In this document: positions 15,534 through 23,345 of the stretch, one piece after another
How the letters are laid out: every line of letters starts with the position of its first letter
Numbering within the stretch: position 1 is the first letter of the stretch
Source of the DNA: Streptomyces barringtoniae
Lineage (GTDB): Bacteria > Actinomycetota > Actinomycetes > Streptomycetales > Streptomycetaceae
DNA length: 64,000 nucleotides
Direction: 5' to 3'
NCBI RefSeq assembly: GCF_020819595.1
Contig: NZ_JAJHNP010000002.1
Location: forward strand, 186,001-250,000
Position numbers and translations under genes: made by a program
Notes under the pieces: model-generated
Told to the model about the DNA's origin: nothing
What the model saw: the letters and a program-made list of their open reading frames with translations, nothing else
Database searches by the model: none

Positions 15534-16559
15534 TCAGGCGGCTGCGAGGATGTCGAGCACCGAGATCACGGTGGCGCCGGGTGCCAGGCCCTTCGGGGGA
15601 TGCTGACCGTACGCCAGGTTCGCGGGAATGACGGCCAGCACACGGCTGCCGACCCGCTGGCCGACCAGGGCGCGGTCCCAGCCCGCGATGACGTTGCCCC
15701 GGCCGATCACGACGGGCAACGGGCCGCCGTCCGCGTGGGAGCTGAGGAAGAGGTCGGTCCGGTCCTTGCCACGGGCGGTGTCCCACGCGGCCGAGGAGTG
15801 CTGCAGGACCACGGTCTGCCCGGCTTCGACCACCGGACCGGTGCCGTCCACCAGGCGCTTGATGACCAGGCCCTTGGGGGCCGCCTGGTCGGGGACGGAC
15901 AGAGTCGCGGTGCCGTCGTCCTTGTTCATGTGCACCTCGGGCAGCGCGTCGGAGATCGACTGCTGCTCGCCGGGGACGATGGCGTGGGCGCCGATGACGT
16001 CCAGGATGTCGACGGCGAACACGACGGTGTCCTTGCCGGTGACATGGAGCCGCGCGTTGCCGGTCGCCCCATACGCAGCCGCGGGGGGTGCGACGACCAG
16101 GATTCGGCTACCGGCGCGCCGGCCTTGCACGGCCCGGTCCAGGGCGGTCAGGGTCGCGCCGCGCCCGACGGCGAACACCTGCGGCCGGGCACCCTTGTCG
16201 TACGAGCTGGGAAGTGCCTTGCCGGTGCGCCACACCTTGGCGGTGTAGCGGACGACGGCCACGTCGCCGGTGTGCGCGGCAGGTCCCCGCCCCGGCGCCT
16301 GCGGTGCGACGACGAACTTGCCGCTCGGCGCGGACTTCGGCAGCGAGATCGTGGCCGGACTCCCGAACTTCCCGGAGACGGTGGGGAGTACGGCGTCCGT
16401 ACGCACCGCGGTGGGCACGGATCGCGCGTGCACGGTTACCGAGGGGGCCGCGAGCGGCCGGTGCCAGCCGTCGGGCCGCGGCCTGTCGGACGAATGGTTG
16501 CTGCTGCACCCCACGAGCAGGAGGGCGGGCGCTATCAGCAGTGCTGCGAATCGACGCAT
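15534..16559 (-). CDS. FKBP-type peptidyl-prolyl isomerase lipoprotein with two FKBP domains
   Basis: A 341-residue exported protein. The lipobox LLVGC (cysteine at residue 18) follows a short basic/hydrophobic signal, so it is probably anchored to the outer face of the membrane. Two FKBP modules are visible: residues about 90-190 (AAHTGDVAVVRYTAKVW ... PQVFAVGRGATLTALDRAV ... VVAPPAAAYG) and about 225-341 (KGLVIKRLVDGTGPVVEAGQ ... VVIGRGNVIAGWDRALVGQR ... VIPANLAYGQHPPKGLAPG). The second domain keeps the canonical end; the first is more divergent and may be inactive. It would assist folding of secreted proteins. GGGAAAG precedes the ATG. Confidence 0.9.
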   Translation of the reverse strand: MRRFAALLIAPALLLVGCSSNHSSDRPRPDGWHRPLAAPSVTVHARSVPTAVRTDAVLPTVSGKFGSPATISLPKSAPSGKFVVAPQAPGRGPAAHTGDVAVVRYTAKVWRTGKALPSSYDKGARPQVFAVGRGATLTALDRAVQGRRAGSRILVVAPPAAAYGATGNARLHVTGKDTVVFAVDILDVIGAHAIVPGEQQSISDALPEVHMNKDDGTATLSVPDQAAPKGLVIKRLVDGTGPVVEAGQTVVLQHSSAAWDTARGKDRTDLFLSSHADGGPLPVVIGRGNVIAGWDRALVGQRVGSRVLAVIPANLAYGQHPPKGLAPGATVISVLDILAAA

Positions 16560-16711: not shown

Positions 16712-16891
16712 TCAGCTACTCCTGACCTTGCGCCAGGCCGCGCGTGCCAGTGTCACCGCACCGAGCACCACGAACGCGACCACCAGAAAGGCCACGGCCT
16801 CTGTCGGCGACGGGAGTTGATGGCGACCGATCAAGGAGGCGAGCGTCATGCCCACCGCGGCGAACACGAGTGACAGAGCCGCTCGTTTCAT
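16712..16891 (-). CDS. Small two-helix membrane protein, candidate RHS immunity protein
   Basis: A 59-residue protein starting MKRAALSLVFAAVGMTLASL, with GGGAGG a few bases before the ATG. It has two hydrophobic segments (residues about 3-20 and 31-50) and a basic tail (RAAWRKVRSS). It begins 26 bp after the last codon of the RHS C-terminal tail and is followed by a strong hairpin, so it is the last gene of the RHS unit. In polymorphic-toxin loci the gene right after the toxin tail encodes immunity; a membrane immunity protein would match a hydrophobic, membrane-acting tail. The immunity role is inference from position only. Confidence 0.55.
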   Translation of the reverse strand: MKRAALSLVFAAVGMTLASLIGRHQLPSPTEAVAFLVVAFVVLGAVTLARAAWRKVRSS

Positions 16892-16917: not shown

Positions 16918-17211
16918 TCATGCGTACCACCAGCCGACGAAGGTTGCCCGGATCCGGTAGACGGTCCACCAGTGGTGGTGTCCGGGCCACTTCCAGGCGA
17001 ACAACAGCCACTTGGCCCGCGGGTGCCACGAGTCCGAGATGTGGTTGCTGATGACCGCGGCGAGGAATCCGATGACGAAGTAGCAGCCGAAGCCGGCGCA
17101 CCATGAGCCGATTGCGCCTGCCAGACCCCAGACCGCCCCCTGCGCGAGGTCACGCTGGAGCGTGCTGCTCAGGTACACCATGATGTAGTGCCATTGGCCC
17201 CACTTCCAGCG
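16918..17211 (-). CDS. RHS C-terminal toxin-like tail, in frame behind an amber codon
   Basis: Directly after the TAG that ends the RHS frame (17212-17214), the same frame stays open for 98 codons: RWKWGQWHYIM, then VYLSSTLQRDLAQGAVWGLA, GAIGSWCAGFGCYFVIGFLA, and a tail rich in tryptophan and histidine (WKWPGHHHWWTVY, ending FVGWWYA). The first ATG is at 17181 and has no ribosome-binding site before it, so separate translation looks unlikely. RHS proteins normally continue past the DPVNAFDLAG core into a variable C-terminal toxin; this is exactly that place. The hydrophobic glycine-rich middle suggests insertion into or passage through a membrane. Either the amber codon is read through at some rate, or it is a recent nonsense mutation (or sequencing error) that detached the toxin. 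Confidence 0.6.
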   Translation of the reverse strand, partial: RWKWGQWHYIMVYLSSTLQRDLAQGAVWGLAGAIGSWCAGFGCYFVIGFLAAVISNHISDSWHPRAKWLLFAWKWPGHHHWWTVYRIRATFVGWWYA

Positions 17212-20200
17212 CTAGATCCGGAAGGTGCCCGCGAGGTCGAATGCGTTGACGGGGTCCTGCCCCGCGTAGTCGTACGCGTTGGCGCTGCCGCCCAGCACCG
17301 GGTCCACGGACAGGAAGCGGCCGGCGGTCGGGTCGTACAGCCGTACTCCCATGAGCGTGAGCCCTGAGACAGGCGCCTCGGCCCGCTGTTTGCCGCCGAG
17401 CCAGCCGTAGCGGGCGGCGGTGGCGTCGCCCTCGGCGTTGCCGAACTCGTCGTAGGCGAGCGCGGTCGGCGCCTGGGAGATGTCCAGCGGGAGACGCACC
17501 GTCACATCGCCGTGGATGTCGGTGAGTTGCAGGACGGTGTCACCCGTGGCGCTGGTGATCGCGGCCAGTTCGCCGTCGACGGCCTGGACGTTGCGGGTGA
17601 TGGTGCCGGTGTCCTCCTGGGTCCAGTCGGGGCTGTCGCAACCACACCCGTAGTGGTTGGTCTTCGACTCGGTCTGGGTCCAGGTGCCGGCGTTGTTGGT
17701 CTCCGTCGTCCAGGACGCGAGACGCTGGGCGGCGTCCAGGGTCCAGGTCTGCCGGCTGGTGCCGTCGGCGGAGGTCTGCTGGCGGACCAGGTCGTTGGCG
17801 TAGTAGGCGATGGTCACGCCGGACGCCTGGGTGGTGGTGCGGCCGAAGGCGTCGTAGACGATGCCCGCGTTCACCAGCCGGTCGGCGCTGTCGTAGGAGT
17901 TGTTCGTGGTCGTGGCGCCGGTGGAGCTGCACGCCGTGCCCGCCGCGCTGACGCTGGTGGCCAGAGCGGTACGGTTGCTGTTGTTGTCGAAGGTGTAGCC
18001 GCGGCGGGTGCAGGTTCCGTCCGGGGCGCTGTCGTCCGCCTGGGTCAGGCGGCCGGTGTTGTCGTAGGAGTAGGCGCGGTCGTAGGTCTGGCCTCCCGTG
18101 TCGGTATCGGCGACGGTCTGGCCGTGGACGGAGTGGTCGGCGGTGTCGGAGGCGACGACGGTGCCGTCACTGTCCTTGGTGTAGACCCGGGAGGTCTCCG
18201 CGCCGGTCTCGTCCTGGGTCAGGTTGAGGGTGTAGCCACCGGGCATCTGCTCGGTGGCGACATTGCCGTCCGCGTCGTAGGTGGCGTTGAAGGTGCCTGC
18301 GACCGAGTCGGTGCGGGAGGTCTCCAGACCGCGCGGGTCCTTGGCGGTGTCGTAGGTGTAGGTGGTCGTCGACGGAGCCGAGTCGGTCACCTTGGTGGGC
18401 CGGCCGAGCGCGTCGTACTGGGTGGCCGCGGTGTTGCCGCTGCCGTCGTTGTAGGAGATCTCCCGTCCCAGCATGTCGGTGACATGCGTGATGGTCTGAC
18501 CGCCCGACGTGACGGAAGCGACGTCTCCGCTGTTCTGGTCGTATGTGGTGGTGGTGTCCGGAACCGCGGTGCCCACCCCGCCGGTCACCGACACCAGGGT
18601 CGGACGGCCGGCCGCGTCAGCAGTGATCGTGGTGGTACGGGTCACGCCGTTGGCGGTCTCGGTCAGTTTCGCCGTATTGCCCCACCGGTCGTACTCGGTG
18701 GTCTTGGCCGGCATCTGGGTGGGATTGGTACCGCCGCCGGTGATGGCACCGGCAGGACCCACCGAGCAGACCAGGTCCGCCCACTCCGGACGCCCGTTGC
18801 AGGCACCCGTACCCGTCGCCGAGTAGTAGGTGATCACGGTCGCACCGGCGTCGGCGCCGTTCGACTTCGGCAGGGTGGTCTTGGTGACCCGGCCCTGGGA
18901 GTCGTACGTCGTCGTCTTGACAAGGTTCAGACCGCCCGGATCCTCCGTCGCGGAGGTGGTCAGGCCTTTCACCCAGTCATAGGCCGTCTTCGTCGTGCGG
19001 GTGTCGCCGTCGGACGGGTAACCGCCCACGTAGGCGCCGATGGTGACGGTGGTCGGCTGGTTGGACACGGTGGCCGTACCGTCGGTGGGGCGGCCCTCGT
19101 CGTAGGCGGTGATCGTGTGCTGGCGGGCCGCCACCTCGCTGCCGGCGGGCAGGTCGGTGCCACCGGTTCCGGCGTGCAGCACTCCGGTCAGAGTGACCAG
19201 GTGCAGCGGGCCGAAGCTCTCCAGCTCGCGCTGGCCGTCACTGGAGTCGATGTGCGTGGTGGACAACTGCTCCGCGCGGTCCGCCGTGGACAGGCCGTTG
19301 ACGCCGAGCAGGGTCAGCTCGTTCAGCCCCGCACCGCTGGTGGACAGCGCCAGCTCACGGTTGCCCGCGGTCAGTTCGCGGATGGTGTTGCCGAGGTGGT
19401 CGTACTCGGTCACGCTCAGGTGACCGCCAGGGGTGGAGCTGTCGACCTCACGACCCGACGCGTCCGCGTACGAGATCGAGGCACGGGTGTAGCTCGCCGC
19501 GGTCATCGCCGAGCCGTCGTGCGACGCGGGCACGGAGTCAGCCGGGAAAACCGCCGTGGCGTCGGTGGGAACGTCGGTCTGGCCCCAGGCCGCGACGTCG
19601 GTGGCGCCCACCGGGTAGGGGGCGTTGGTCCCGGTCAGCGGAACGTCGTAGACCATGCTGGTCGTGGCGGTGCCGCCGTCGGTCTGCGTCTTCGAGCCCG
19701 CCACCAGGGTGGGACGGGAGGCGGAGAGCAGCATGCCCGGGCCCGCGGTGGCCGTGTTGCCGGCCTGGCCGTAGGTGAAGGTCCACGGCAGCTCACCGGG
19801 CGGCGTCAGGGTCGCGACCCGGCCGGCGCTGTCGTAGGTGTAGGCGGTCTTCAGCGCAGGCGAGATGCGCGGGTCCCAGCTCTCGCGGAGCCGGCCGGAG
19901 GTGTCGTAGTCGTACTGCGCGATCACCGACGCGGTCGCGGAAGCCGCACCCGGGTCGGTGACCCACAGCTTGATCTGCGACACCTGACCCACGTAGTCGC
20001 CGAACACCGAGGACGTGGCGGTCGTGGAGGCCGCGTACACGTACTCCAGGATGCGGCAGCCCTTGGTGGACGGGGTCGACGCACAGGTGGCGGACGACAC
20101 TGCCGACGTGGGCGCGATCACGTACTTCGGGCGGGCCAGCGTCAGCGAGCCGTTGACGACCTTCTCCGAGACCACCGTGGTGGTGGTGTTGCTGGTCGGC

Positions 20201-22797
20201 AGAGAGGAGGTGGACACCTGCCAGGTGGTGGCGGCCGGATCGACCTTGGCGAAGGTGGTCGTCGTGCCGTCGGCGTCCTTCAGCGTGAAGGAACCCGTCA
20301 GGGAACCGGTCAGGGTCAGGTCCTCGGAACCCGGCTCGCTCTTCCAGCCACCGGTGGAGGTGGCGGTGAACCCGGTCTCGTCACCGTCCACGTTCACGAC
20401 CGCCACCGAAGTGGACGACGTCTGGCGGACGTAGGCGTAGTCGGAGTCGGAGATCTCCGCGGTCGTGCCGGCCGTCCACTGCGGGCCGAAGATGGCCACC
20501 TGGCCCTGGGCGTCCGCGCCCGCGGTCGGCTTCCGGGACGACGCCGTGCGCGACACGCTCATACCGAACGCGGACGCGTCCGTCGCCGACAGGGTGTAGT
20601 CACCGGTCAGATCATTGACCGTACCCGGACCGACCTGGTCCGACGGAGCTGTGCCCGCGTTGCGGTCCACGGTGACCGTCGACACCGGCGAGTAGCCCGT
20701 CGTCGTACCGTCGGTGAACGCGGCACGCAGGTCGACCGGGCCGTCCTCCGTCAGCGACGTGGTGATGTTCCACGTCAGCGCCGGCGGCGCACCGCTCGGC
20801 GCTGCCAGCGGCCACGCCGTCACCGGCGAACCGTCACTGTTCTTCGTCACGTCCGCGAGCGGCACGTTCTGCCAGCTGTCGGTCTCACCACGGCGGTACT
20901 GGTACGTCACACCGGTGTAGGTGTTCTTGCCGGTCGACGCCAGCGCCACCCGGCGCGCGGGCCGGTCACCGTTGCCGGGGCTCAGCAGCGCGGCACCGTC
21001 CGCACCCACACCGAAGGAGTACTGGGTCTTGGCCGTCGACAGGTTGCCGCCGGAGTCGATCGTCTGCGCATACAGCGTGTGCCAGCCGTCAGCGGGCGTG
21101 ATGGTGATGTTCAGCGGGTCGCCGCCGCTGCCGTCCACCGTGTCGTCGATGCGCTTCGCCATCGTCGGGTCGTCCAGGCCCCACTTGAAGCCCTGGCCGT
21201 CCGTCGACGTCGTGTCGAGGGTGCAGGTCACCGAGCCGGGTGCCTTCGCCGACCACGTGTTCAGCGGGTAGGAGGGGCAGCTGATGGTCGGGGCCGCCGG
21301 CAGTGCGGTGTTCAGCACGAAGGTGGTGTAGCCGGTCCAGGACCCGTAGTCGGTGGAGTCGTACCCCCGCACCCGGAACCGCAGGTGCGCCCCCGCCGGG
21401 AAGGCGTTGGCCGACGGGATGGCAAGAGTGGCAGTGGAACCCGACGCCACCCCACCGCTGGTTGCGGTGTAGGTGTAGGTGGTGTCGTTGTACGCGGGGT
21501 CCGGGGTCACCTCGAACTGCGCCTTGACCGTGCCGCCGTCCGCGTCCGTCACCTTCGCCGACAGCGTCGGCGTCAGCGAGGTCGCGTACCGCTTGCCGTT
21601 GTAGGCGTTCAGGGCCGAGGGCGAGATCGCGGCGGACGTCGGGACGGCCGGGTAGGAGTTGTACGTGACCGTCAGGTGCGGCTCGGCCGAGTTGTCCCCG
21701 GAGACGTAGTTGGCGGAACGGAAGCGCCGCCACGTCAGCGGGTCGGTCTCACTCGCACCGGCAATCCGAAGGCCGTAGTTGGCCGTTCCACTCGCCCACG
21801 CCGCCACGATGGAGTCGATGTCGAAGTTCATCGTGCCGCCCGGGCACGAACTGTCGTAACCCAGCGCGGCCTTGTTCACCACGGCACCGGTCGTCGTGGT
21901 CGCCGGCTGGGTTCCCCAGGTGATGGTGGAGGAGTCCCAGTTCGCGGTGATGCGACGCACCTCGGTTCCGGCGCCCGTCGTGGCGCAGGTCGAGGAGTAG
22001 TACGAGTACAGCGCCAGGTTCGTGTCGATGATGTGCTTGCCCGCGAAGGGCGACACATCGAACTTCAGGTACGAACGCGCCACGTCCGTGCCCGTGTCGT
22101 ACGTTCCCGACTTCAGCTCCGGTGACGAGAGCTGCGAGTCCGGGTAGTCCGGGGTCTGTACCCACGTGTCCGTGGTGACCGCCAGAGTGGACGTCGGGTC
22201 CACGGTCACCGGGTACGTGAGCGCCGGATCGGCCAGGAACTTCGCATCCGGGGTCAGGACCAGGGTCTGCGAACCGTCCTTCGCCGTCTCGATCTTCGTG
22301 GCCACGCGGGCCAGATGCTTGGACTCACCCGAACGCCGGTCCTTGGAGGAGTCCCACATCATCGGCGCCGGCGCCTCGGCCACCAGCTTGCCGCCTGCGT
22401 CCTTCAGCAGCAGGTGCCCCGACCGGGCCTGGGACAGCTTCAGTCCGTCCAGCCGCAACGGAATCCGGTACGACACCGGGCCGTTGGGCCTGCTCGCCAG
22501 GACCACGTCCTCGGAGAAGCCCTGCTTCTGCGCGGTGACCTTCAGCGTCTGGCCGGCGCCCAGCTCGTAGGAGGCGGTCGAACCCTTCACCTTCGGCGCA
22601 GGCAACTTGTCCTGCCAGTCCATGGCGAACCGGGTCTTGCCCCGGGCGACCGATGCCAGCCGGCTGTCACCGCCGTCGGAGACGGCCACGTCCGCGGCCG
22701 CCGCCTTCGGCTTCAGATCGGCACCCACATCCGACAGCGACGTGTCGATGTCCTGCCACTTGCCGTCCCGCTTCACCCGCACCGGGCCGGCGAACGA
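17212..22797 (-). pseudogene. Giant RHS/YD-repeat protein, N-terminus lost; tail cut by an amber codon
   Basis: An open frame of about 1,860 codons. From the N-terminal side: a leader region (VRVKRDGKWQDIDTSLSDVG), a DNRLRE-type domain (about residues 195-375, TWVQTPDYPDSQLSS to EPHLTVTYNSYP), a beta-rich region, many YD repeats (about 950-1750, such as YDSAGRVATLTPPG and YDALGRPTKVTDS), and the RHS core end (YDPTAGRFLSVDP, then YAGQDPVNAFDLAG). Such proteins form a secreted shell around a C-terminal toxin. Two defects are visible. The first residues, including any signal peptide, are missing: upstream of 22797 the sequence turns into an aldehyde dehydrogenase fragment, and the only start left is an internal GTG at 22782 without a ribosome-binding site. 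The end is a TAG in the middle of the normal C-terminal continuation. The frame is otherwise undamaged over 5.5 kb, so these events are recent or the product is still used. Confidence 0.75.
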
Positions 22798-23056
22798 CTC
22801 TGATCTTCGGGTAGGTGAATTCCCGAAGCGTTTCGACGGCGTGCTCGCGCCCGTAGCCGCTGTGCTCGGTGCCTCCGAAAGGGGTGCCGAGGGTGCCGCG
22901 GAAGTAGTTGTCGACGCACACTATCCAGACCTCCAGCCGTGGCCACCCGGAACGCGGTCGCGCTGTCGCGGCTGTACACGCCGGCCAGCAGCCCGTCGTC
23001 CGATTCGTTGGCGATCTCGACGGCCTCGTCCTCCGAGGAGAACGTGACCGTGAGTC
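22798..23056 (-). pseudogene. C-terminal remnant of an aldehyde dehydrogenase
   Basis: Minus-strand sequence encodes the last part of an NAD-dependent aldehyde dehydrogenase in two frames. First comes VTFSSEDEAVEIANESDDGL, then LAGVYSRDSATAFRVAT. After a frameshift it continues as VDNYFRGTLGTPFGGTEHSG and YGREHAVETLREFTYPKI, the standard C-terminus of the superfamily. It runs straight into the RHS frame at about 22797-22806, so the two genes were joined by recombination. The other end (about 23056) meets the LysR remnant. It is not a copy of the intact dehydrogenase at 23531-25054: the wording of the matching regions differs. Confidence 0.75.
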
Positions 23057-23071
23057 GTCGACGTCACTGAC

Positions 23072-23345
23072 GGGCGGCCAGGACACGTCGACCGGCGCCT
23101 CGAATCGCTGGGCAGACCGAGGCGAGCGAGCGTGACCGTGCCCTGCCACGCGGCGGCCGCCGTCGCGGTCCCGGGAACCCGGTTGGTGGCGACCCTGCCG
23201 ACGAGGTTCGCCCTCCAGCACGCGGCCCCGGGCGTCACCACCGTCGTCCCGGCACCGGACGAAATCGGCCCGATGAGCTACGCGATGTCCTGGCACCCCC
23301 GCCTGGACGACGACGCCGCACATAGGTTCCTCCAGCTTGCTGACC
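23072..23345 (+). pseudogene. C-terminal remnant of a LysR-type regulator
   Basis: On the plus strand the frame reads HVDRRLESLGRPRRASVTVP, then AVPGTRLVATLPTRFALQHA and IGPMSYAMSWHPRLDDDAAH, which is the second effector-binding lobe of LysR regulators up to the usual WHPRLDxDxAHR ending. No N-terminal helix-turn-helix remains. It is placed back to back with the aldehyde dehydrogenase remnant, both missing their N-terminal halves, as if one deletion removed a divergent promoter and the starts of both genes. Beyond 23345, on the minus strand to about 23440, lies another protein-like fragment (FVPPAFNKKAGSSDPHVERE, then AALDWLERHSPP) that I cannot assign. Confidence 0.7.

Follow-up and report, generated by a model that had tools for sequence, protein, structure and literature searches.

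The closest described systems are the RHS polymorphic toxins, whose C-terminal toxin-immunity cassettes are exchangeable according to Zhang et al. 2012 (PMC3482391). A gene of this type is expected to encode RHS/YD repeats with an RHS-associated core domain, an N-terminal export signal or trafficking part, and a tail that is translated together with the core and varies between similar cores by recombination. The tail should be toxic, and an immunity gene lying immediately behind it should neutralise it. The window, a stretch of 64,000 nucleotides from Streptomyces barringtoniae, contains one such locus. Compared with the toxins of that account (PMC3482391), it shares the Rhs_assc_core end, signs of exchange at the 3' tip and a small gene in the position expected of an immunity gene, but differs in having no signal-peptide-like start, a stop codon at the border of core and tail, and a tail with no family in the libraries searched. 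The locus is very probably a fairly recently broken RHS polymorphic-toxin gene, with a tail and a probable immunity gene that appear to have been acquired earlier by cassette exchange.

The RHS core and the in-frame stop

The features at the 3' end of the locus are the following.

17212..22782, minus strand: RHS core open frame, 1856 aa, 5'-truncated, with a GTG start and a TAG end (Pfam/NCBIfam domains, relatives)
17212..17214, minus strand: TAG in frame between core and tail, where both relatives have a sense codon (sequence and relatives)
16918..17211, minus strand: toxin-like tail, 97 codons and TGA, one hydrophobic segment, no known family (family searches, relatives)
16712..16891, minus strand: 59-aa protein with two hydrophobic segments and GGGAGG before the ATG, probable immunity gene (counterpart behind the tail in both relatives)

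The core has the repeats and the core domain of an RHS polymorphic toxin. Rhs_assc_core is located at residues 1777–1852 with 49.6 bits (cut-off 32.5), RHS_repeat was found with 28.4 bits (cut-off 22) and YD_repeat with 19.2 (cut-off 15.8), and the Pfam/NCBIfam search also gave a DNRLRE domain. There is no frameshift and no second stop in the 1,856 codons, and the third-position G+C is 0.92. The last core residues, DPVNAFDLAGTFRI, stand directly before the TAG (17214–17212, minus strand), and past it the same frame runs on for 97 sense codons and ends with TGA at 16920–16918 (minus strand). A TAG at 17212–17214 with a continuous frame to 16918 had been described in a sequence-only reading of this DNA and was confirmed on the minus strand; the tail of 98 codons given there is a real open frame, with 97 sense codons, and the number 98 includes the stop. 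With the TAG in place the tail is not translated together with the core, and in the two relatives the frame is open. That reading had also found no ribosomal binding site at the first methionine codon after the stop, and by eye there is indeed no Shine-Dalgarno-like sequence ahead of this ATG (17181). A separate small gene starting from it was rejected, as the tail is fused to the core in the relatives and no such sequence is seen.

The tail and the gene downstream of it

The tail is judged to be genuine coding sequence, more than a chance open frame, because of its homology, its third-position G+C and its dN/dS; the length of the frame is not the basis for this. It shows 85% and 82% amino-acid identity to the tails of the two relatives across all 97 residues and has a third-position G+C of 0.90, and the pairwise dN/dS to the two is 0.23 and 0.30, values that come from three tails with no outgroup and are not branch-specific. 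No family match was obtained in Pfam or NCBIfam, PHROG gave a single match at chance level (E 0.32), and no relative was found among PDB sequences. An AlphaFold2 model of the tail (2 sequences) is all helix, with a mean pLDDT of 52 and a pTM of 0.22, and is too poor to inform.

The 59-aa protein has a recognisable counterpart behind the tail in both relatives. Its score to Pfam DUF202 is 19.9 bits, below the cut-off of 23.4, and it has no match in NCBIfam or PHROG. Hydrophobic segments (Kyte-Doolittle above 1.6 over 19 residues) number one in the tail and two in the 59-aa neighbour. Immunity genes of polymorphic toxins sit directly behind the toxin tip (PMC3482391), and the 59-aa membrane protein is probably the immunity factor of the tail. 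Judged by hydropathy only, membranes were probably the original target of the tail, against which the two-segment membrane protein would have given immunity.

Adjoining the RHS locus at 15534–16559 is a gene for an FKBP-type peptidyl-prolyl isomerase with a start that by eye resembles that of a lipoprotein. Over 681 bases the DNA of this gene shows 66.5% identity with the DNA next to an RHS paralogue located on contig C71 of the same genome.

Relatives with an intact gene

The tail was found in 3/392 genomes of a genus sample, namely the own genome, G079 and G091, and in 3/295 genomes of a smaller genus sample. A scan of another genome collection gave one locus, in Streptomyces sp. GQFP (NZ_CP089312.1), a member of the same genus as the window that we take to be G079. 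When the search was made around G079 the tail was present in G079 and G091 alone (2/199 genomes). Weak matches in G357 (E 0.001, with one internal TGA) and G015 (E 0.007), among matches in 5/199 genomes, were taken as chance and not counted as relatives; G015 is not matched by the tail alignment in the 392-genome sample.

In both relatives core and tail form one open frame of 2,043 (G079) and 2,098 codons (G091) from stop to stop, and the proteins counted from the start codon have 2,039 and 2,090 aa respectively. The GQFP gene is like that of the window in its tail, 85% identical over 97 residues, and in the gene for a small hydrophobic protein behind it, but unlike it in that its frame is uninterrupted over 2,039 aa and begins with a signal-peptide-like stretch. 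Homologues with the tail fused without a stop, which the sequence-only reading proposed to search for, were thus found in 2/2 relatives. A sense codon stands at the place of the TAG in both of them, which are other species and not sister strains, and since it does, the TAG is best read as a nonsense change specific to this lineage (or an assembly error) and not as a conserved recoding signal. The proposal that a recent nonsense mutation silenced the tail is supported by the same comparison, with a sense codon and a single open frame in two of the two relatives.

Loss of the 5' end

Upstream of the core the following features were found.

22783..22802, no strand: junction zone, where the RHS homology ends at 22791–22792 and the aldehyde dehydrogenase scrap begins (DNA comparison)
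22803..23033, minus strand: scrap from the 3' part of a gene for aldehyde dehydrogenase (DNA 80% identical to that of a frame for this enzyme in G301, 494 codons long)
23055..23314, plus strand: scrap, 3' part of a LysR-type regulator gene (DNA 79–83% identical in four genomes of another family)

The homology at the DNA level stops at 22791–22792 in all three comparisons, with the two relatives and with the own-genome paralogue, and the RHS gene lacks roughly 110 N-terminal residues, among them the signal-peptide-like stretch. Before the place of the first residue of the window protein there are 112 residues in G079 and 127 in the C71 paralogue, and in G091 there are 163 from the furthest start and 106 from the start corresponding to that of G079. 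The N-terminal stretch of G079 is basic, then hydrophobic, and reads by eye as a signal peptide plus linker. In a search of the own genome, the N-terminal residues of G079 have just two matches, one at the C71 paralogue (E 4.7e-27) and a weak one on C63 (E 1.0e-4), and none at the RHS locus of the window. The export signal or trafficking part of an RHS polymorphic toxin is therefore missing from the window gene. No Shine-Dalgarno-like sequence precedes the GTG at 22782. A start further upstream that would restore the N-terminus was rejected, as the frame is open for just 46 codons above the GTG before a stop is reached, and these 46 codons are the aldehyde dehydrogenase scrap in another reading frame.

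The LysR scrap has matches in G299, G301, G304 and G307, and the match in G301 belongs to a LysR-type frame, of which it forms the 3' part. The families of the scraps were assigned by Pfam on the frames of G301, which belongs to another family of the same order; with the scraps of the window themselves, Pfam gave Aldedh below its cut-off and no match for the LysR scrap. In G301 about 3 kb, with an alpha/beta hydrolase frame in it, separates the two counterpart pieces, and in the window the two scraps almost touch, making about 0.5 kb of broken-gene pieces that run into a headless RHS gene. This loss, which is absent from the sequence-only reading, is more telling damage than the TAG.

The paralogue and the mosaic

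The RHS paralogue on contig C71 (L011, 3099–9161) is the best DNA match of the window over most of the RHS shell, with 75% DNA identity over 4,558 aligned bases. Like the window locus it has an FKBP-like gene downstream, but its 5' end is intact and its C-terminus is different, with a stretch containing cysteine where the end of the RHS core would be.

Identity was followed in 250-base blocks between the window and the paralogue and the two relatives. In the first block (22,800–22,551) none is clearly closest (0.67 and 0.70 vs 0.68). From 22,550 to 18,301 the paralogue is closest in 16 of the 17 blocks, with an identity of 0.69–0.83, the exception being 20,050–19,801, and over 18,300–16,801 it is the two relatives that are closer, in 6/6 blocks, which are all the later ones with full alignment. 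The change is clearest over 17,550–16,801, with 0.78–0.87 for the relatives vs 0.54–0.62 for the paralogue, which aligns partly there. Such a mosaic fits an exchange of a 3' cassette that would comprise the core end, the tail and the immunity gene. Variation of the tail between similar cores by recombination, as in RHS polymorphic toxins, is seen both in this mosaic and in the different C-terminus of the paralogue.

Over the 1,464 codons common to all four genes, the dN to G079 is 0.340 for the window and 0.329 for the intact paralogue. With the different C-terminus of the paralogue included the values are 0.339 and 0.402 respectively, and those on shared codons are preferred.

Origin of the broken gene

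The ancestor of the gene should have encoded a protein of about 2,000 residues with a signal-peptide-like start, an RHS shell and a C-terminal toxin-like tail, followed by the small membrane protein that probably served as immunity factor. Tail and immunity genes would have come by recombination within the RHS core, for which the identity mosaic is evidence. In the relatives with an intact gene, the RHS shell is presumably exported and brings the tail to bacteria nearby. In the window lineage, as the DNA comparisons show, the 5' end was later lost in a rearrangement that fused what was left of the gene to the aldehyde dehydrogenase and LysR-type scraps, and a nonsense change, shown by the comparison with the relatives, placed the TAG between core and tail; either break may be the first. 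Without its start region the product should not be exportable as that of the relatives presumably is, and the TAG is therefore probably neutral debris. The window gene most likely no longer works.

As a counterpoint to decay, the core of 1,856 codons is free of frameshifts and second stops and has a third-position G+C of 0.92, its dN is like that of the intact paralogue, and the dN/dS of the tail is low. No sign of long decay is therefore seen, and the gene either was broken recently or still has something in it that is under selection. From the sequence, the damage looks recent.

Alternative explanations

A sequencing or assembly error, in which case the living strain would have a sense codon in place of the TAG and perhaps a complete 5' end as well, is very unlikely. 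The genome is a draft of 140 contigs, in which the TAG or the junction at 22791 could come from a faulty assembly, and there is no other damage in the core; but the same gene would have to contain two separate faults, and the 5' junction runs into scraps of two other genes and is no misjoin to an intact one, which looks like real decay.

Also very unlikely is that the stretch of core, tail and immunity gene is a silent store, unexpressed and kept as a donor for the presumably expressed C71 paralogue. If so, the locus would be inactive through the 5' loss and the amber stop, and the intact tail, the immunity gene and the homology would let recombination load the tail onto the working gene. Polymorphic toxins are described as swapping tips (PMC3482391) with standalone toxin-immunity cassettes. 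The homology to the paralogue is long (4,558 bases at 75% DNA identity), and the different 3' end of the paralogue and the mosaic of the window show that exchange at this place has happened in the gene family. However, the tail is present in just two other genomes of the 392-genome sample, with no case of movement onto a core of the C71 type. An identity of 75% is also low for frequent homologous exchange, and plain decay of the toxin gene fits the same data.

The sequence-only reading had offered, as one of two possibilities, amber readthrough giving a small share of full-length toxin. Such readthrough as a regulated device is extremely improbable, being rejected mainly by the absence of the stop in both relatives and by the lost 5' end. 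In its favour, the frame past the TAG has stayed intact and is conserved, as is the probable immunity gene. But conservation of the stop among homologues, as expected of recoding, was not found (the TAG is in 0/2 relatives), and the start region with its signal-peptide-like stretch is gone. A sense codon in relatives, which that reading had itself named as evidence against readthrough, is what both carry, as other species and not as sister strains. A weaker point is that a pattern for a tRNA with the anticodon CTA gave 0 matches in the own genome, the pattern being narrow, noisy and blind to near-cognate misreading; with the anticodon GTA the same pattern gave 9 matches vs 13 for a backward control, and ARAGORN found tRNA-Tyr in one of the two loci tested.

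The border of core and tail is also without a stop in all 30 of the RHS loci sampled in the genus, which are open for at least 83 codons past the core. This base rate is a rough one: of 61 genomes searched, 30 contributed their best match, most of these loci are of another RHS clade, and for one of them (L041), which is truncated on one side, a wrong core length (34 codons) was used. A literature search covering titles and abstract openings, with most subscription papers outside its scope, gave no matching title for a stop at the RHS core-tail border.

Among the RHS-core matches listed, some cores have short open frames and at least two contain an internal stop. Such stops, one TAG and one TAA, are found in the matches G041:C197:5046-5270 and G057:C1:2278628-2278852, and broken RHS genes therefore occur elsewhere in the genus.

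The locus shows that a conspicuous stop between an RHS core and its toxin can turn out to be ordinary gene decay when the opposite end of the gene and the relatives are examined too. From the intact genes of the relatives a rare type of RHS tail can be defined (3/392 genomes, the own genome included), which has no named family in the libraries searched and is followed by a small membrane protein.
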